Shown one piece after another: positions 6,134 through 13,403 of a stretch of 64,000 bases of DNA (within the stretch, counting starts at the first letter, position 1; each line of letters opens with the position of its first letter). Where the stretch lies: positions 1 to 64,000 of the forward strand of contig QZKF01000025.1 of NCBI GenBank assembly GCA_003599455.1. The letters run 5' to 3'. The notes under the pieces were generated by a model, which saw only the letters and a program-made list of their open reading frames with translations, had not been told where the DNA came from and ran no database searches. The DNA is from Comamonadaceae bacterium (lineage in GTDB: Bacteria; Pseudomonadota; Gammaproteobacteria; Burkholderiales; Burkholderiaceae_C). The translations under genes were made by a program, and so were the position numbers.

Positions 6134-6460
6134 ATGGAACTCGCCGTTGAAAGTCTGGAGACCCCGGCTTTGACCAAGGCGCAGCTCGCCGAGTTGCTGT
6201 TCGACCAGATCGGCCTGAACAAGCGCGAGTCCAAGGACATGATCGACGCCTTTTTCGATCTGATCACCGACAGTCTGGTCGATGGGACCGACGTGAAGAT
6301 CTCGGGTTTCGGCAATTTTCAGATTCGCACCAAGGCGCCGCGGCCGGGGCGTAACCCGCGCACAGGCGAACCGGTGGCGATTGAGGCGCGCCGGGTGGTG
6401 ACTTTCCACGCCAGCCCCAAGCTCAAGGAACAGGTTCAGACGGCCGTCATTGGCGGTTGA
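6134..6460 (+). CDS. ihfA: Integration host factor alpha subunit
   Basis: DNA-bending nucleoid protein acting as a heterodimer with IHF-beta in recombination, replication and transcription. 108 residues with the HU/IHF fold: an N-terminal helix pair (LTKAQLAELLFDQIG), GFGNFQIRTKAPRPGRNPRTG forming the beta arm with the intercalating Pro, and a C-terminal helix. I chose ATG 6134, with GGAG about 11 bases upstream; an ATG at 6119 would add five residues but has its AGG directly abutting the codon. Lies just downstream of pheT, as in many proteobacteria. Confidence 0.95.
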   Translation: MELAVESLETPALTKAQLAELLFDQIGLNKRESKDMIDAFFDLITDSLVDGTDVKISGFGNFQIRTKAPRPGRNPRTGEPVAIEARRVVTFHASPKLKEQVQTAVIGG

Positions 6461-6642
6461 TCAAGTGCCCCGGGGGTAGGGGCTCCACGGTTCCCGACTC
6501 TTCGGAATTGCGCCTGAATGGTGCATTCCGGCCCCGCGATGGGGGTGGTTGCAACATTTCACACAGAAATGCCCAATCCCCCGCGCACACCGGCTTGAGT
6601 TAGAGTAAATTTCAAGGTTCGGTCTGTACTGCCTTGATTTTC

Positions 6643-7095
6643 ATGGAAAAAACGCTCCCGCCAATACCAGCCAAACGCTATTTCACCATCGGTGAGGTGG
6701 GCGAGTTGTGTGGTGTCAAGCCACATGTGCTGCGGTACTGGGAGCAAGAATTCACACAGCTCCGCCCGATGAAGCGACGCGGCAACCGGCGGTACTACCA
6801 GCATCATGAGGTGCTCATGATTCGCCGCATACGAGAACTCCTGTATGACCAGGGTTTCACGATCAGCGGTGCGCGCAACAAGCTGCAGGAAATTGTGCAG
6901 GCGGAGCGTGACAAGCGGCGCAACGAGGAAGACGAGGCCATCGACGTGATCGACCTGGACGAGGTGGTTCACGGCGACGTGGTGATTCCCTTCATCGAGG
7001 CCGACTACGCTGCACCCGGTGCTTCGGGCTCGTTGCTGTACGACGTTCGCCGTGAACTGCTGGAAATTCGCGAGCTTCTGAAGCACACGGCCTGA
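6643..7095 (+). CDS. MerR-family transcriptional regulator
   Basis: 150 residues. The N-terminal MerR winged helix-turn-helix is clear: YFTIGEVGELCGVKPHVLRYWEQEF, then GNRRYYQHHEVLMIRRIRELL. An acidic linker (EEDEAIDVIDLDEV) and a short C-terminal helix follow. There is no metal-binding Cys pair, so it is not a metal-responsive MerR. Its place after ihfA is conserved in betaproteobacteria and its target is unknown to me. ATG 6643 is preferred to a TTG three codons earlier. MerR proteins normally bind dyads in overlong promoter spacers; no such site was identified here. Confidence 0.88.
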   Translation: MEKTLPPIPAKRYFTIGEVGELCGVKPHVLRYWEQEFTQLRPMKRRGNRRYYQHHEVLMIRRIRELLYDQGFTISGARNKLQEIVQAERDKRRNEEDEAIDVIDLDEVVHGDVVIPFIEADYAAPGASGSLLYDVRRELLEIRELLKHTA

Positions 7096-7114
7096 TCGCG
7101 ACTGGTTTGGACGC

Positions 7115-7120
7115 TATAAT
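7115..7120 (+). promoter_or_regulatory. -10 element for tRNA-Pro
   Basis: A perfect TATAAT 12 bases before the mature tRNA 5' end, with only a weak -35 (CTGATC, 7092-7097) at 17-bp spacing. Spacing to the tRNA fits a stable-RNA promoter. Confidence 0.6.
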
Positions 7121-7131
7121 TTGAGGCTTGT

Positions 7132-7208
7132 CGGCGTGTAGCGCAGCCTGGTAGCGCACTTGCATGGGGTGCAAGGGGTCGCGAGTTCGAATCCCGCCAC
7201 GCCGACCA
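7132..7208 (+). tRNA. tRNA-Pro (anticodon GGG)
   Basis: 77 bases with an encoded CCA end. The acceptor stem pairs CGGCGTG with CACGCCG. The anticodon stem CTTGC/GCAAG encloses loop ATGGGGT, with U33 followed by anticodon GGG. The T-loop reads GTTCGAATC. The D-arm (GCGCAGCCTGGTAGCGC) and overall sequence resemble enterobacterial tRNA-Pro(GGG). A terminator follows directly, so it is a monocistronic unit. Confidence 0.97.
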
Positions 7209-7217
7209 TTTGTCTGG

Positions 7218-7250
7218 AAGCCCGCAATCGAAAGGTTGCGGGCTTTTCTG
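7218..7250 (+). terminator. Rho-independent terminator after tRNA-Pro
   Basis: Perfect 10-bp stem AAGCCCGCAA (7218-7227) against TTGCGGGCTT (7236-7245), an 8-base loop, then TTTTCTGTTT. Confidence 0.93.
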
Positions 7251-7508
7251 TTTCTGGTGACCGGCCCTGAAAACACCCGCCACCCAGCGACCTCAGGCCA
7301 GACTCCCCGCAGCCTGTCTTGGGTTTGTGGGTGTGCCGCACCCTGCTGGAAAGCGGTTGAAATCGTCAAGCAGGCAATATGCCCGGGTTTTGACACTTAT
7401 TTGCTTACTTTTTGTTGCGAGCACATCTATACTTGACCTACCAAAGATTCAGGCACCCGTTGGGTTCCCGCCAACAACAGGGCTTGTTGCGCAAGAGAGG
7501 TAAGCAAG
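7251..7508 (+). other. AT-richer intergenic region upstream of the kinase cassette
   Basis: About 260 bases with no credible gene. Base composition is visibly lower in GC than the flanks, especially 7388-7435. A TTGACA (7390-7395) and a TATACT (7428-7433) are present but too far apart to form one ordinary promoter. AGAGAGG at 7494-7500 is the ribosome-binding site for the next gene. No repeat of the tRNA 3' end was seen. Confidence 0.5.
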
Positions 7509-8117
7509 ATGATCGATTCTTCACAGTCCCCCTCCCAACCCTCTTCGGGGTCCGATCCTTCAGTTGTGGGCCTGTCCCGGCGCCGTCTTGTGCGTGCAGG
7601 CTTGTCTGCCGCTCCAGTCATGGCCGCCTTGAAGAGCAACAGCGTGCTGGCCGGTGATCACACCTGCATCCGGCCCTCCTCCTTTTCTTCGCTCACTGCG
7701 GCGCACATGAAGATCAGCCAGGGGCGCACGCTCAAAACCGACTACGAATGCAAGTCTCATGGGTATTGGAAGAACCACGAGGTAGGTCTCGCGACGAACT
7801 TCAAGCAAACCAAGTTCCTGTCTGCAACCACAGGTTTTTCGCAAAATCCTGGTCATGCTTACTCCAACAAGACACTACAGCAGGTACTGGATGAGGGGGG
7901 TAATCGCAACAATGCGGCTTTGGCGCGCCATGTGGTGGCGTCTTTCCTGACTGCGACTGCTTTCAACAATGATCCGTCGCGCGTCCTGTTGACCAAGAGT
8001 CAATGCCGGTCCATCTGGAACGGCCAAGGCGTGTGGTCTCCTTTTGCAGGAACGACGTGGACGTTGTCGCAGACGATGGCGTACTTCGACATGGTTTACG
8101 GCCCCGCCTTCCTGTGA
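7509..8117 (+). CDS. Tat-type secreted protein of unknown function, first gene of the kinase cassette
   Basis: I do not recognise a named family. 202 residues. The first 18 are hydrophilic with eight serines (MIDSSQSPSQPSSGSDPS). LSRRRLVRAGL follows, a twin-arginine-like motif, then a short hydrophobic stretch and a plausible SVLA/GDH cleavage site near residue 48. The mature part contains CKSHGYWKNHE, a motif type I associate with secreted proteins, and ends aromatic-rich (YFDMVYGPAFL). Local GC is low: 30 of 60 bases at 7741-7800. Its stop codon overlaps the GTG of the PqqD-like gene, so it is translationally coupled to a recognition protein and a kinase. It is therefore the obvious candidate substrate; that is inference. 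Confidence 0.8.
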   Translation: MIDSSQSPSQPSSGSDPSVVGLSRRRLVRAGLSAAPVMAALKSNSVLAGDHTCIRPSSFSSLTAAHMKISQGRTLKTDYECKSHGYWKNHEVGLATNFKQTKFLSATTGFSQNPGHAYSNKTLQQVLDEGGNRNNAALARHVVASFLTATAFNNDPSRVLLTKSQCRSIWNGQGVWSPFAGTTWTLSQTMAYFDMVYGPAFL

Positions 8118-8404
8118 CCCGGGCCTCGGCCTGGGCCAGCTATCGCTGCACCCGGCCTGCTGATTTCGCGATACACAGTTGGCCCGATGGCGTGGTGGTA
8201 TACGACGATGCGAGCGGTAGCCTGCAAGCTCTGAGCCCGATCGCCGGAGAGGCTTTCGCCCTGATTCGGGCGAAAGAATGCAGTCCGGAAAGCCTTGCCC
8301 GAGCCATGGAACTGGCGGAGCCCGGCCCCGACGACATTGAGATGTTTCAGTCACTTCTGATGCAGTTCGAATCCATGGGCTTGATCGAGTGCATTCAGGG
8401 GTAA
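8114..8404 (+). CDS. PqqD-family protein (RRE-like), HPr-kinase-related system
   Basis: 96 residues if it starts at the GTG overlapping the upstream TGA (GTGA, 8114-8117). The shape is that of PqqD/RiPP recognition elements: a strand-rich front (FAIHSWPDGVVVYDDASGSLQALSP), then helices (AGEAFALIR, SPESLARAMEL, FQSLLMQFESMGLIE). PqqD-type domains bind the leader of a peptide or protein substrate and present it to a modifying enzyme. Neighbours on both sides fit the group I recall being described as an HPr-rel-A system (PqqD-like, HprK-related kinase, nucleotidyltransferase). The fold call is motif-level and should be confirmed by profile search. Confidence 0.75.
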   Translation: MTRASAWASYRCTRPADFAIHSWPDGVVVYDDASGSLQALSPIAGEAFALIRAKECSPESLARAMELAEPGPDDIEMFQSLLMQFESMGLIECIQG

Positions 8405-9318
8405 GGTCTTCCTCGACGGTTTCTGCGCTGTCTCCGACCGAACTGGCAAAACGCCTCCGGTCCCGGGGCATTTTTTTGCGCATCCCGCCCTTTGTCATGC
8501 ACATCCAGAGTCCCATTCCGGTTGTGGCGCATGGCTTGCATGCCTTGTACCCCGACCATGAGCTCATCGAGAGCGATGACCTCTTCGCGGATTTTCATGT
8601 GGCGGTCAAACCCAGACGGCGCCTGCTGAAAACCGTATGCGTGTTCGAGATGGACGGCTTTCAGCCCTTCACGCCCCTGGCCTATGGAGAAGCGTATGCG
8701 TTTCTCGAGTGGGGCATGAACTGGTGCGTGACCAGCTACTGCCACACATGGATCACCATCCACGCCGCCGTGCTTGAAAAGGGTGGTCGTGTGCTGATCC
8801 TGCCGGCGCCACCGGGTTCGGGCAAAAGCACGCTGTGCGCGGCGCTGATGCTCCATGGCTGGCGCCTCTTGTCCGACGAAATGGCCTTGCTCGACCCGGT
8901 ATCGGGTCTCGTGACACCCTCGCCACGGCCTGTGAGTCTGAAGAACGAATCGATCGAGGTGATCCGGCGCCTGGCGCCCGACGCGAACTTCGGACCGGTG
9001 GCCCACGACACCATGAAGGGCACGGTCGCCCACATGCGCATATCGGCCGACAGCCTGGCACGGGCCGACGTGCCGGCCCAGCCGGCCTGGGTGGTCTTCC
9101 CGCAGTTCCAGAAAGGGGCTGGGCTTTCGGTCGATGAGCGACCCAAATCGCGGGCGCTGGTGGATATCGCTGCCAACAGCTTCAATCACCATGTGCACGG
9201 GCGCACCGGATTTCAGGCGCTGGTGGATCTGGTCGATCGATGCGCTTGCCATGACCTGCGATACGGCCATCTCGACGAGGCCATCGCCTGGTTCGACGAA
9301 CTGTCCGCCGCCGCATGA
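8389..9318 (+). CDS. HPr kinase-related protein (HprK-related kinase A type)
   Basis: 309 residues from a GTG that overlaps the PqqD-like gene by 16 bases. A P-loop ILPAPPGSGKSTLC (residues 137-150) is followed by WRLLSDEMALLD (158-169), the Walker-B-like segment of HprK/phosphoenolpyruvate carboxykinase-type kinases, and by a conserved-looking His in ITIHAAVLE (125). There is no HPr/PTS partner nearby, so the target is unlikely to be HPr. HprK-like kinases beside PqqD-like proteins phosphorylate serine in some lasso-peptide clusters of Firmicutes; protein or peptide phosphorylation is therefore the leading idea. The stop overlaps the next ATG (ATGA). Confidence 0.82.
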   Translation: MHSGVRSSSTVSALSPTELAKRLRSRGIFLRIPPFVMHIQSPIPVVAHGLHALYPDHELIESDDLFADFHVAVKPRRRLLKTVCVFEMDGFQPFTPLAYGEAYAFLEWGMNWCVTSYCHTWITIHAAVLEKGGRVLILPAPPGSGKSTLCAALMLHGWRLLSDEMALLDPVSGLVTPSPRPVSLKNESIEVIRRLAPDANFGPVAHDTMKGTVAHMRISADSLARADVPAQPAWVVFPQFQKGAGLSVDERPKSRALVDIAANSFNHHVHGRTGFQALVDLVDRCACHDLRYGHLDEAIAWFDELSAAA

Positions 9319-10415
9319 CCCTGCCACCCATCGACACCCTGGTGGCGGCGCTTCAGCGCCCCGAAGGCCTGGGTGCGCTTGGTCCCACCGCCTGGGATCT
9401 TCTTGTCCGGCAGGGCCGCCAGGCCGACCTGCTGGCCCGTGTAGGTGCCCAGGCTGAGGCCCGGGGCCACTGGGAGCAACTGCCGGTGGAACCACGCCGA
9501 CACCTCGGTTCAGCCATGGGGCTTGCCGCCAGGCAACACACGGAGCTTCGCCACGAGGTGGTGCAGATCGCTCGCGCTCTGGAACCCATCGGCATGCCGG
9601 TGGTGCTGCTCAAGGGGGCCGCCTACACCATGGCAGGTCTGGATGCTTCGCTGGGGCGCATGGTGTCCGACGTGGACATTCTGGTGCCCAGGGCACGCCT
9701 GGCGGATGTGGAGTCGGCGCTCATGATGGGCGGATGGGTGTCCATGAACCGCGACGCCTACGACCAGCGCTACTACCGAACCTGGATGCATGAGTTGCCT
9801 CCGCTCAAGCACATGACGCGGGGCACGGTGCTGGATGTGCACCATGCCATCATGCCGTTGACAGCCCGGCTCAAGCCCGATTCCGATCGGCTGCTGCAGC
9901 GTGCCCGACCTGTTGGCGACGATCCCCGCATCCAGGTGCTGTGTGCACCCGACATGGTGTTGCACAGCGCTGCGCATCTGTTCCACGAAGGTGACCTGGA
10001 ACTTGGCCTGCGCGGACTGGTCGATCTGGACGCCTTGCTGCGCGAATTCGCCGCAGACCCTGGCTTCTGGCCGGAACTGCTGGCGCGGGCCCGCGCGCTG
10101 CAACTGGAATGGCCCTTGCACCAGGCTTTGCGGTATGCGGGGATGTTGCTTCATTCCGCGGTGCCCGCGCACGTCACCGAGGCGCTGCAGCACAGCCCGG
10201 GCGTGCGCATTTCGACCTGGCGCCAGCGCCTCATGGACGCCCTTTTCCTGCGTGCGCTGCGCCCCGCGCACGCGTCGGCGTCGGATGCATGGACACCGGC
10301 GGCCCGGTTCCTTCTGTACCTGCGTGGACACTGGCTGCGCATGCCGCCGGCCATGCTGGTGTGGCACCTGCTGCACAAGCTCGTCAGACCGGTGCAAGCC
10401 GATCCGCAGAAGTGA
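9315..10415 (+). CDS. Nucleotidyltransferase family protein
   Basis: 366 residues. The nucleotidyltransferase signature VVLLKGAAYTMAG (about 96-108) with GRMVSDVDILVPR (114-126) supplies the two-Asp metal site (D119, D121). The rest is helical, with His-rich segments LDVHHAIMP and MVLHSAAHLFHEGD. The fold is that of large uncharacterised nucleotidyltransferases found next to HprK-like kinases in peptide-modification clusters. It starts within the kinase stop codon (ATGA) and is one base from the protease gene, so all five genes form one operon. It may transfer NMP or extend a phosphate placed by the kinase; no direct evidence for either. Confidence 0.8.
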   Translation: MTLPPIDTLVAALQRPEGLGALGPTAWDLLVRQGRQADLLARVGAQAEARGHWEQLPVEPRRHLGSAMGLAARQHTELRHEVVQIARALEPIGMPVVLLKGAAYTMAGLDASLGRMVSDVDILVPRARLADVESALMMGGWVSMNRDAYDQRYYRTWMHELPPLKHMTRGTVLDVHHAIMPLTARLKPDSDRLLQRARPVGDDPRIQVLCAPDMVLHSAAHLFHEGDLELGLRGLVDLDALLREFAADPGFWPELLARARALQLEWPLHQALRYAGMLLHSAVPAHVTEALQHSPGVRISTWRQRLMDALFLRALRPAHASASDAWTPAARFLLYLRGHWLRMPPAMLVWHLLHKLVRPVQADPQK

Positions 10416-10416
10416 C

Positions 10417-11190
10417 ATGAAGCGACGCCTCTTTCACGCCACCTGCCTGTGGGTGTTGAGCCTGACGTGGATGGGCTGCCATGCATGGGCCGGACTGGCC
10501 GAGACCGTTTTGCGCGTGAAGCCCTCGGTGGTTCTGGTCGGTACCTTCAAGACCACCGAAAGCCCGCGGTTTCAGCTCAGGGGTGCGGGTTTTCTCGTGG
10601 CCAGGGGTGACCTTGTGGTGACCAACGCGCATGTGCTGCCGGCCGACCTGGACAAGCCGGATGCGCCCACGCTGGTGGTGCAGGTGCGTTCGGGGCAGGG
10701 CGATTGGCAGATGCGCTCGGTCACCGTGCTGGAAACCGATGTGTTGCGCGACCTGACGCTGCTGCGCATGGAGGGCGCGCCGGGCCCCGTGCTGCGCATC
10801 GGTGACTCCCGGCGCGTGCGCGAGGGCGACTACCTGGCGTTCATGGGTTTCCCCATTGGGGGCTCGCTGGGCTTTTCGCATGTGACACACCGCGCGACCG
10901 TCTCGACCATCACATCGGCCGCGCTGCCCAGCCCTTCGGCCGGGCGTTTGAAGGAGCAGGCCATCCGTGGTCTGCGCAACGGCACTTTCGACATCTTCCA
11001 GCTCGACGCCACTGCCTATCCGGGCAACAGCGGTGGACCGCTTTTCGACCCCGACACGGGCGAGGTGATGGGCGTGATGAACATGGTGCTGATCAAGAAC
11101 ACCCGCGAATCGGCGCTGAGCCAGCCCTCGGGCATCTCCTACGCCATCCCCAGCCGCTATGTGCAGGCGCTGGTGGACCGCCACCGTTGA
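10417..11190 (+). CDS. Secreted trypsin-like serine protease
   Basis: 257 residues. The N-terminal signal peptide ([16 protein letters not shown], cleavage probably after HAWA, about residue 25) predicts export. The chymotrypsin-fold triad is complete: His72 in VVTNAHVLP, Asp112 in [11 protein letters not shown], Ser205 in GNSGGPLF. There is no PDZ domain, unlike DegP/DegQ. It starts one base after the nucleotidyltransferase stop and looks cotranscribed with the kinase cassette. It could mature or degrade the Tat-type protein in the periplasm, or be an independent protease that hitch-hikes on the operon. Confidence 0.85.
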
Positions 11191-11198
11191 GGCCTTTC

Positions 11199-12317
11199 GT
11201 GAGCGCGAATATTGAGCGGGTGGATGCGCTGGTGGTCGGCGCCGGCGTCGTGGGGCTTGCGGTGGCGCGCGCGCTGGCCTTGACTGGCCGCGAGGTGATG
11301 GTGCTGGAGCGAGAGGCGGCCATTGGCACCGGCACCAGCTCGCGCAACAGCGAGGTCATTCACGCCGGCATCTACTACCCGGAAGGCTCTCTCAAGGCAC
11401 AGCTTTGTGTGCAGGGCCGCCTGGCGCTGTACCGTTACTGTGCCGAGCGCGGCGTGGCGCACCAGCGTTGCGGCAAGCTCATCGTGGCCCATACGCCCTC
11501 CCAGCTGGCCGCGCTGCCTGCCATCCTCGACAAGGCCCGTGCCAACGGCGTCGAGGACCTTCGCCTGCTCGACCGGGCCGAGGCTCGCGAGATGGAGCCA
11601 CAGCTGGAATGCCTGGGCGCCGTGCATTCGCCCTCCACCGGCATCGTCGACAGCCATGGCCTGATGCTTTCGCTGCAGGGTGATCTTGAAAACGCGGGTG
11701 GCCTGGTGGCTTGCCACACCGACGTGGAAAAGCTCAGCGTGTCGGCCGCCGGCATCGAGGTATTGACCGCCGACGGCACCCGACTGCTGGCGCGCACGGT
11801 GGTCAATGCGGCGGGCCTGGGCGCCTGCGGGCTGGCGCATCGCGTGGCCGGGCTGGACGCGCGCCATGTACCGCGTGCCTGGTTCGCCAAGGGCAACTAC
11901 TTCACGCTCTCGGGCCGTGCCCCGTTCAACCACCTCATCTACCCGGCCCCTGAGCCCGATAAACACCTCGCGGGTCTGGGTGTGCACCTGACGCTCGATC
12001 TGGGCGGACAGGCCAAGTTCGGACCGGACGTGCAATGGGTGGACGCAGCCGACGACTTGCAGGTGGATCCGGCGCGCGGCGAGGGGTTCTACGCCGAGGT
12101 GCGGCGCTATTGGCCCGGTTTGCCCGACGGTGCCCTGCAGCCGGGCTATGCGGGCATGCGCCCCAAGATCAGCGGGCCGCACGAGCCCGCGGCGGACTTC
12201 CTGATCCAGGGGCCTGCGGTGCACGGGGTGCCCGGGCTGGTCAACCTGTTCGGTATCGAGTCCCCGGGCCTCACCAGCTGCCTTGCGATCGCGGATCGCA
12301 CTGCGGCGCTGGTCTGA
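11199..12317 (+). CDS. FAD-dependent oxidoreductase, L-2-hydroxyglutarate oxidase (LhgO)-like
   Basis: 372 residues of the DAO family. A dinucleotide-binding [14 protein letters not shown] sits near the N-terminus, with [18 protein letters not shown] typical of the LhgO/L2HGDH branch, and a C-terminal FAD-contacting segment ([19 protein letters not shown]). The likely reaction is oxidation of a 2-hydroxy acid, with electrons passed to oxygen or quinone. I chose GTG 11199 with GAGG seven bases upstream; a TTG at 11187 overlapping the protease stop is the alternative. Substrate assignment is by family resemblance only. Convergent with pyrD, with no gap. Confidence 0.82.
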
Positions 12318-13403
12318 TCAGCGGTCCTTGAGTGCCTGGATTGCGCGCGCCGACTCCCACACCAGCGCCGGTCCCTTGTAGATCAGGCCGGTGTAAATCT
12401 GCACCAGGTTGGCACCCGACTGGATCTTGCTCACCGCGTCTTCCGCGCTGAGCACACCGCCCACCCCGATGATGGGGAAGCTCTTGCCCAGGCAGGCACG
12501 CAGCTGGCGTATCACGCGGTTGCTGGCCTGCAGCACCGGTGCCCCGGAAAGACCCCCGGTCTCCTGCGCGTGGGGCAGTCCCGCCACCGCCTCGCGGCTG
12601 AGCGTGGTGTTGGTCGCGATCACGCCGAACGCGCTGGTGGCCTGTCCGTTGCTGTCGGCGCCATAGCGCATCAGCGTGGTGGCGATGATCTCGACCTGGG
12701 TGGCATCGAGGTCGGGCGCGATCTTCACGAAGACCGGCGTCCGCCGTCCATGTCGCTGCGCCAGCAGCTCGCGCCGCTCGGCCACCGCGCCCAGCAGCGC
12801 GTCCAGCGCTTCGTCGCTCTGCAGGCTGCGCAGGTTCTGCGTGTTGGGGCTGGAGATGTTGACGGTGACGTAGTCGGCGTGCGGGTAGACACCTTCGAGG
12901 CAGGTCAGGTAGTCGTCGGTGGCGCGTTCGATCGGCGTGCTCGCGTTCTTGCCGATGTTCAGGCCCAGCAGCATGGGGCTGGCGCCGCTGCCGCTGCGAA
13001 AGCGCGCCCGCTGCACGTTGGCGATGAAGGCGTCCAGGCCCTCGTTGTTGAAGCCCAGCCGGTTGATCAGTGCGTTGGCCTTGGGCAGGCGGAACATGCG
13101 TGGCCTGGGGTTGCCGGCCTGGCCCTTGGGCGTGACGGTGCCGACCTCCACGAAGCCGAAGCCCATGGCGGCCAGGCCATCGATGCAGCGCGCGTTCTTG
13201 TCGAGCCCGGCGGCCAGACCCACGCGGTTGGGAAACTGCAGGCCCGCGAGCGTGCAGGGGTCGTGCACGCGGGGTTCGCTGTACAGGCAGGTCAGTGGCG
13301 AGTGTTGCAGGCGCTCGATCGACTGCAGGGTGAGTTCGTGGGCGGTCTCGGGGTCCAGACCGAACAGGAAGGGGCGTGCGACAGCGTAGGGGAGCAGCGA
13401 CAT
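12318..13403 (-). CDS. pyrD: Dihydroorotate dehydrogenase (quinone)
   Basis: Fourth step of pyrimidine synthesis: oxidises dihydroorotate to orotate, passing electrons to quinone at the inner membrane. 361 residues, with the N-terminal extension of class 2 enzymes ([17 protein letters not shown]) that holds the quinone tunnel. It has the catalytic-Ser segment [15 protein letters not shown], a FMN-binding [11 protein letters not shown] near the end, and [10 protein letters not shown] near residue 60. It is divergent from rpiA across 38 bases, which must hold both promoters. Confidence 0.97.

Follow-up and report, generated by a model that had tools for sequence, protein, structure and literature searches.

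The first 64,000 nucleotides of contig QZKF01000025.1 from a Comamonadaceae bacterium (assembly GCA_003599455.1; hereafter, the window) include five consecutive genes for a protein with a twin-arginine translocation (Tat) leader, which we call gene 1, a PqqD-like protein, an HprK-related kinase, a nucleotidyltransferase of family PF14907, and a trypsin-like protease. We read these genes as a protein-modification cassette that is conserved and widespread, and we infer its chemistry. The cassette probably makes a post-translationally modified protein that is exported by the Tat system, by means of PqqD-like recognition, the kinase, and the nucleotidyltransferase. Gene 1 very probably encodes the product. 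The open reading frames (ORFs) of the five genes are:

7509..8117, forward strand: gene 1, the presumed substrate, 202 amino acids, with a Tat-type leader
8114..8404, forward strand: PqqD-like protein, resembling the recognition elements (RREs) of ribosomally synthesized and post-translationally modified peptides (RiPPs), 96 amino acids; an ORF with a weak match to TIGR04353
8389..9318, forward strand: HprK-related kinase A (TIGR04352), 309 amino acids
9315..10415, forward strand: nucleotidyltransferase-fold protein (PF14907), 366 amino acids
10417..11190, forward strand: accessory trypsin-like (DegP-like) protease (Trypsin_2)

An earlier interpretation of this DNA, made from its letters alone (the sequence-only reading), described five genes on one strand that are joined by 4-base or 16-base overlaps, and the coordinates bear this out: successive genes overlap by 4, 16, and 4 bases, and the protease gene follows after a gap of 1 base. 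For the PqqD-like gene, the mechanical ORF opens earlier, at 8003; we use a GTG start, which overlaps the gene-1 stop by 4 bases.

We scanned named genomes with an alignment of the kinase and confirmed at least 545 relatives. We kept the best 80 (the named loci), which lean towards close relatives. Using profiles that we built for each family, we found the kinase and the nucleotidyltransferase in all 80 of these loci, gene 1 in 79, and the PqqD-like protein in 78. The first four genes are collinear in 78 of these best 80, which is more than chance. The profiles for gene 1 and the PqqD-like protein were trained partly on the same loci that were later counted with them, and none of our co-occurrence counts are corrected for kinship. 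In a sample of 398 genomes of the phylum, HprK_rel_A (TIGR04352) was above its cut-off in 61 genomes. Gene-1 homologs were found in 28 of the 398, and in 20 of these 28, as counted from coordinates, the homolog lies within 2 kb of the HprK_rel_A match. We also examined 40 further loci, which are a subset of the 61 phylum-sample genomes with HprK_rel_A above the cut-off. A gene for a protein with a Tat leader lies upstream of the kinase in 24 of them by profile (E ≤ 0.05), and inspection by eye adds another 9.

At one locus (L135, G241:C392), a single ORF of 706 amino acids is matched by both the kinase profile and the nucleotidyltransferase profile; the two proteins may be fused there.

Gene 1 has no Pfam or NCBIfam family, and when we scanned 61 of the gene-1 proteins, none matched an NCBIfam model, PEP-CTERM included. 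Its leader, SRRRLVRAGLSAAPVMAALKSNSVLA (residues 23–48), contains the twin-arginine motif SRRRLVR. We aligned the homologs twice (A2, 58 rows, and A3, 61 rows), with start codons picked by a script. Some of the 79 loci with gene 1 are absent from these alignments (near duplicates, fragments at contig ends, mis-set starts, and divergent sequences, including the Aquabacterium type), and by "invariant" we mean invariant across these rows. The homologs are divergent, with a mean column identity of just 21–22%, and only two columns are invariant in both alignments: Arg25, within the twin-arginine motif, and Ser61. In both, conservation reaches 90% or more at Arg24, Ser43, Cys53, Ser57, and Phe103. 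The distance from the arginines to a serine five residues before the terminal Ala or Gly of the leader is 18 or 19 positions in 56 of 80 proteins (16 of the 80 were not matched by our simple pattern). A profile of the leader gives 29.2 bits for the window's gene 1 and at most 14.9 bits for six other weakly matching stretches of its genome. Gene 1 is single in this genome: with the gene-1 profile, six other stretches reach 11.6–15.2 bits, and five of these are inside ORFs of 493–938 amino acids.

Two parts of gene 1 lie beyond the leader:

7677..7691, forward strand: Ser57-x3-Ser61, at the N-terminus of the mature part and predicted to be modified (Ser61 invariant, Ser57 at least 90% conserved)
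7761..8114, forward strand: mature domain, from the GYWKNH motif (residues 85–90), modelled confidently from about residue 81

Of 79 proteins, 76 have a pair of serines with this spacing (S-x3-S) in the 25 residues that follow the leader, as compared to 8.1% of 25-residue windows elsewhere. (We considered the window and L042–L121, or 80 proteins, and found no leader in L073; the 40 further loci are not part of this count.) The three misses (L051, L114, and L121) resemble a truncated gene or mis-set starts. More generally, 19.5% of the 20 residues that follow the leader are serine, versus 7.5% of the residues beyond. Threonine is not enriched there (6.7% versus 8.4%). These percentages are from 87 proteins, some of them counted twice, as the loci L022–L035 repeat some of the named loci. 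A constant leader in front of a changeable body, encoded beside an RRE-like protein and a relative of serine kinases, gives gene 1 the appearance of a substrate, and from these sequence features we read it as the protein that would be modified.

In the AlphaFold2 model of gene 1, ten-residue blocks across residues 81–200 average 76–93 in predicted local distance difference test (pLDDT). We did not find this fold in the PDB with Foldseek (best E = 2.8) or with VIA-align (nothing at Z ≥ 2 among 31 chains), and the gene-1 sequence profile had no match in the PDB either. A missing PDB match does not show that the fold is new. The homologs at L050, L052, and L063 are rich in cysteine (13, 15, and 11 cysteines, respectively), and the GYWKNH motif is missing or varied in them. 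With the part of the gene-1 profile that covers the mature domain, we also matched an ORF of 760 amino acids (L167, G396:C23) and one of 299 amino acids (L168, G339:C2), both from genomes without HprK_rel_A above the cut-off, so other proteins may contain a domain of the GYWKNH type.

The window's PqqD-like protein matches PqqD_rel_X (TIGR04353) over the entire profile (1–74 of 74) with 23.4 bits and E = 8.7e-5; the cut-off is 35 bits. All 52 of the aligned syntenic PqqD-like proteins, including the window's, match this model (best E = 7.6e-22). PF05402 (PqqD) is matched by 13 of the 52, and the window's protein is not among them. Its best sequence matches in the PDB, which are weak, are the lasso peptide RREs TfuB1 (E = 0.038) and TbiB1 (E = 0.075).

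The kinase matches HprK_rel_A with 364.6 bits (cut-off 200). Its P-loop is PAPPGSGKSTLC, and the motif residues H125, K146, D163, and E164 are invariant in an alignment of 34 rows. H125, K146, and D163 are presumed counterparts of HprK/P residues. Against the model for HPr kinase itself (TIGR00679, hpr-ser), the score is just 11.3 bits, with a cut-off of 240, so we consider the protein to be a relative of HprK/P and do not file it as an HPr kinase. The nucleotidyltransferase matches PF14907 with 188.9 bits (cut-off 31.2; E = 1.5e-55) and has the motif LLKGAA...SDVDILV; K100, G101, D119, and D121 are invariant in 32 rows. Neither the kinase profile nor the nucleotidyltransferase profile found any sequence in the PDB. 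The sequence-only reading had named these three types of protein and a Tat-like first gene, and the sequences fit this: the motifs of the kinase and the nucleotidyltransferase are intact, and gene 1 has a Tat-type leader.

The kinase is modelled confidently (pLDDT 94.8), and residues 9–309 are closest in structure to ATP-dependent phosphoenolpyruvate (PEP) carboxykinase (VIA-align: Z = 15.8, 280 aligned residues, root-mean-square deviation 4.5, 13% identity). PEP carboxykinase and HprK/P are known to be related. HprK/P matched the model weakly in Foldseek (best E = 4.6e-3) and was not in the first 50 rows from VIA-align. As PEP carboxykinase acts on a small molecule, the cassette's kinase might instead form a sugar phosphate, which the PF14907 protein would convert to a nucleotide sugar for exopolysaccharide; gene 1 would then merely be a co-regulated secreted protein. 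Genes for exopolysaccharide sugar transferases are indeed found near some cassettes. We think that this is unlikely, because it leaves unexplained both the PqqD-like protein and the linkage of gene 1 (79/80 loci), and does not account for a serine that is invariant while the rest of the protein varies.

Instead, we propose that the cassette modifies gene 1. In the cytoplasm, the PqqD-like protein would bind gene 1 at its conserved leader, and this leader would also serve as the Tat signal. The HprK-related kinase would then phosphorylate a serine at the start of the mature protein (Ser61, or perhaps Ser57), and the PF14907 protein would add a group to the phosphate: either a nucleotide, or a hexose as reported for its presumed relative PsmN. 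The Tat system would export the modified protein and the leader would be removed. In the lineages that have it, the protease, which we expect to be periplasmic, might trim the product or clear unmodified copies. According to passages of a review (PMC9266682), the kinases of lasso peptide pathways phosphorylate a conserved serine of the precursor. The same passages relate that PsmK phosphorylates the C-terminal serine of pseudomycoidin, and that PsmN, which is annotated as a nucleotidyltransferase, is needed for the hexoses on the phosphoserine, with nucleotidylation left open (PMC9266682).

With more doubt than belief, we also raise the possibility that this is a new class of export-coupled modification. 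An RRE would read the Tat signal as a leader and retain the protein until an enzyme with the PEP-carboxykinase fold and an enzyme with the nucleotidyltransferase fold have built a glycosyl- or nucleotidyl-phosphoserine near its N-terminus. Tat would then release it as a surface protein of biofilms or flocs, under the control of sigma-54 and PrsR in many lineages.

The conserved region of gene 1 consists of the Tat signal and the residues right behind it, and HprK relatives are reversible kinases. Both points would fit a different role, in which the PqqD-like protein is chiefly a proofreading chaperone for Tat and the two enzymes regulate export by reversible phosphorylation near the signal, without a lasting modification. 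This seems rather improbable to us: all 80 of the named loci encode a nucleotidyltransferase, which suggests a stable adduct, and ordinary Tat chaperones are not known to be PqqD-like.

The protease matches Trypsin_2 with E = 1.1e-23 and 85 bits (cut-off 27.6). It has an N-terminal signal-like segment, and no PDZ domain was reported. The idea of a system in the sequence-only reading would fail if the five genes were rarely found together; the first four genes withstand this check, and the protease does so only in part, as it is in the fetched stretch of 23 of the 80 named loci (21 of the 60 with ample flanks), yet is very tightly linked to the cassette within the genus. Among 36 genomes of the genus (G000–G035), the protease is present in 11: all 10 that encode the kinase, versus 1 of the 26 others. 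Two further genomes that encode the protease, G452 and G453, both contain the cassette. The sole exception is G016, a genome of 2.2 Mb without the cassette, in which the match (L164, G016:C13) begins at residue 67–68 and lies beside PyrD; this is perhaps a remnant. The protease is thus accessory to a four-gene core. In a search for defense systems with PADLOC, only the protease had matches; these were moderate, to the profiles for RT-Protease type XI and PDC-M35A, probably because of a shared trypsin-like fold.

An RRE-like protein together with tailoring enzymes of the lasso type, a serine-rich stretch directly behind the leader, and a protease in a subset of loci could also indicate a cryptic RiPP pathway, in which the protease releases a small modified peptide from the start of gene 1 and leaves the folded C-terminal domain, which is only a carrier. 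We consider this very unlikely. Close relatives conserve the mature domain, and its model is confident, neither of which would be needed for a disposable carrier, and the protease was not found in the fetched stretch of 57 of 80 loci (although some of these stretches are short). Also, the gene for the lasso peptidase B2 was not found in the window's genome: the transglutaminase-type leader peptidase family (PF13471) has no match in this assembly, which is 95.14% complete and in 106 contigs. This agrees with the claim of the sequence-only reading that known lasso roles do not explain the cassette. The asparagine-synthetase-like cyclase (lasso protein C) is not among the five cassette genes and the next gene; the rest of the genome was not searched for it.

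In many relatives, the cassette has a regulatory context that, like the conserved serines of gene 1, is absent from the sequence-only reading. A sigma-54-like -24/-12 element, with at least 10 of the 12 consensus bases, precedes gene 1 in 47 of 75 named loci, versus 58 of 1,292 other ORFs from these loci (the controls are mechanical ORFs, and many are not genes). If some repeated loci are included, then the element is found at 54 of 89, while 1.6 are expected from shuffled sequences. Also, we confirmed PrsR (TIGR02915) beside the cassette at 15 loci, PrsT at 20, PrsK at 17, and EpsB_2 at 10. For PrsK, PrsT, and EpsB2, these counts come from a scan of 50 members and are matches with E = 1e-60 or better; the scan left out seven pieces of the EpsB2 cluster at the ends of loci. 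A similarity cluster for PrsR, with 28 proteins from 27 loci, was inflated: 15 of its members are TIGR02915 and 8 are NtrC, so we take the count for PrsR to be 15. Overall, genes of the XrtA/PEP-CTERM group lie beside 28 of the 80 named loci (a hand-counted union of loci with at least one confirmed PrsT or EpsB_2; every locus confirmed for PrsR or PrsK is already in it); this replaces an uncorrected union of 42 loci.

Within the genus, PrsR is found in 6 of 36 genomes. All six encode the kinase, at about 4 kb from PrsR, and the best sigma-54 site before gene 1 has 10 of 12 consensus bases in four of them and 9 in two. In the four kinase-bearing genomes without PrsR, which include the window's, the best site has at most 8 of 12. 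(In G452 and G453, which are outside these 36 genomes, the best sites have 9 and 8.) Across the phylum sample, HprK_rel_A is above its cut-off in 23 of the 44 genomes with PrsR, as compared to 61 of 398 overall (not corrected for kinship); 38 of the 61 genomes lack PrsR. According to parts of a study of Aquincola (PMC9850573), transposon insertions in prsT, epsB2, and prsK gave floc-deficient mutants, of which those in prsT and epsB2 were complemented and the one in prsK was not. In the same parts, the PEP-CTERM gene pepA is RpoN-dependent, with TGGCAC and CTGCTT as its -24 and -12 elements (PMC9850573). Sigma-54 thus probably controls the cassette in many relatives, as part of the PrsK/PrsR program for exopolysaccharide and flocs. 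This does not apply to the window's copy, where regulation must differ, as its genome encodes an exosortase without PrsR and the best site upstream of its gene 1 matches just 8 of 12 bases.

This lack of PrsR and of a good sigma-54 site in the window's genome is one of several points that weigh against our proposal as a whole. Gene 1 and the PqqD-like gene were not detected at L107, nor the PqqD-like gene at L095, using our own profiles. In the sample of 398 genomes, 8 of the 28 gene-1 matches are away from the kinase. In the fetched stretches of the 40 further loci, 7 lack gene 1, 10 lack the PqqD-like gene, and 5 lack the nucleotidyltransferase, and many of the Tat-leader genes there carry a mature part that is unlike gene 1. 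The window's PqqD-like protein is under the curated cut-off of its family. PF14907 is described as an uncharacterized family, and PsmN is only presumed to be related to it. Because the model of the kinase is nearer to PEP carboxykinase than to HprK, a small-molecule substrate is possible. Finally, serine enrichment behind a signal peptide can have other causes.

The cassette's position in the genome also varies. Its left border is:

7132..7208, forward strand: tRNA-Pro(ggg), identified by ARAGORN, which marks the left end of a variable slot in which the cassette lies

Gene 1 begins 300 bases after this tRNA, in accord with the sequence-only reading, which also placed the cassette in a stretch of lower GC content. 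In 500-base windows, the GC content is indeed 0.56–0.60 across 7251–8750 and rises to 0.65–0.70 across 8751–12500. However, it is equally low (0.56–0.60) across 6251–7500, before the cassette, so low GC is not peculiar to the cassette.

The protease gene is overlapped or closely followed by an ORF (11187–12317, from TTG at 11187 or GTG at 11200) for an oxidoreductase that depends on flavin adenine dinucleotide. Its nearest model is L-2-hydroxyglutarate oxidase, but with 224.2 bits, it is below the cut-off of 299. This gene adjoins the cassette in all 9 of the congener loci that we examined, and we considered it as a sixth part. We rejected it because its homologs are found in 32 of the 36 genomes of the genus, most of which lack the kinase (present in 10/36). 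The cassette lies between tRNA-Pro and the oxidoreductase gene both in the window and in G452. In G011, it is flanked by the oxidoreductase gene and by the same MerR gene as in the window (we did not look for the tRNA). In G029 (L163), the cassette is absent and the oxidoreductase gene begins about 60 bases after the same tRNA-Pro, while in G003 (L162), an ORF of 349 amino acids, with no family assigned, occupies the slot after tRNA-Pro. Other congeners have the cassette beside the same oxidoreductase gene and away from the window's MerR gene. Positions 7209–11186, from tRNA-Pro(ggg) to the oxidoreductase gene, form a slot with variable contents among congeners, so the cassette is gained and lost as one block.

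Several known systems share some of these features. The SynChlorMet cassette also pairs an HprK-related protein (ScmC) with a PqqD-related protein (ScmD). Our kinase matches ScmC weakly (E = 1.4e-5; 24.6 bits versus a cut-off of 125), and ScmD is matched by just 1 of 52 PqqD-like proteins. SynChlorMet cassettes have radical SAM (S-adenosylmethionine) partners; there are none among the six proteins that we scanned (the five cassette genes and the next gene). With XrtA/PEP-CTERM and the floc regulon of PrsK, PrsR, and RpoN, many relatives of the cassette have the neighborhood and the sigma-54-like elements in common. The differences are that gene 1 has a Tat leader, that the 61 gene-1 proteins have no PEP-CTERM match, and that the window's genome has an exosortase without PrsR.

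Another parallel is the phosphorylated and glycosylated lasso peptides, such as paeninodin (PadeK) and pseudomycoidin (PsmK and PsmN). As described in passages of PMC9266682, these pathways likewise involve an RRE-like protein, an HprK-like kinase in which H, K, and D residues are found, a homolog of nucleotidyltransferases, and a conserved serine in the precursor. In contrast to lasso precursors, the cassette's presumed substrate has about 200 amino acids and a Tat leader, and its serine is at the mature N-terminus and not at the C-terminus. Also, the passages give a His-Lys-Asp-Asp set for lasso kinases (PMC9266682), where the cassette's kinase has DE (D163-E164) instead of DD in the presumed counterpart positions, so that Glu may take the fourth place in its set.

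The cassette also resembles the HPr-rel-A system of NCBIfam, which is made up of the same pair of genes: HprK-related kinase A (TIGR04352) and a PqqD family peptide chaperone (TIGR04353). The cassette's kinase is above the cut-off for its model, and the PqqD-like protein matches the other model over its full length, below the cut-off. We searched the open-access literature with the names of the families and models, and combinations of these, and found no paper that describes the HPr-rel-A system or its product. Going by the names of its models, the system as defined does not include a substrate family, an invariant serine, a Tat leader, a sigma-54/Prs context, or an accessory protease. What we add to these named parts is a substrate, predicted target serines, an accessory protease, and, in relatives, a linkage to sigma-54 and Prs. 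If our proposal is true, then the product of the system would be identified as gene 1, the target residue would be narrowed to one or two serines, and PqqD-like recognition would be tied to the Tat export of a folded protein instead of to a small peptide. As the cassette in many relatives sits with floc-linked genes, the system might also be relevant to activated sludge.

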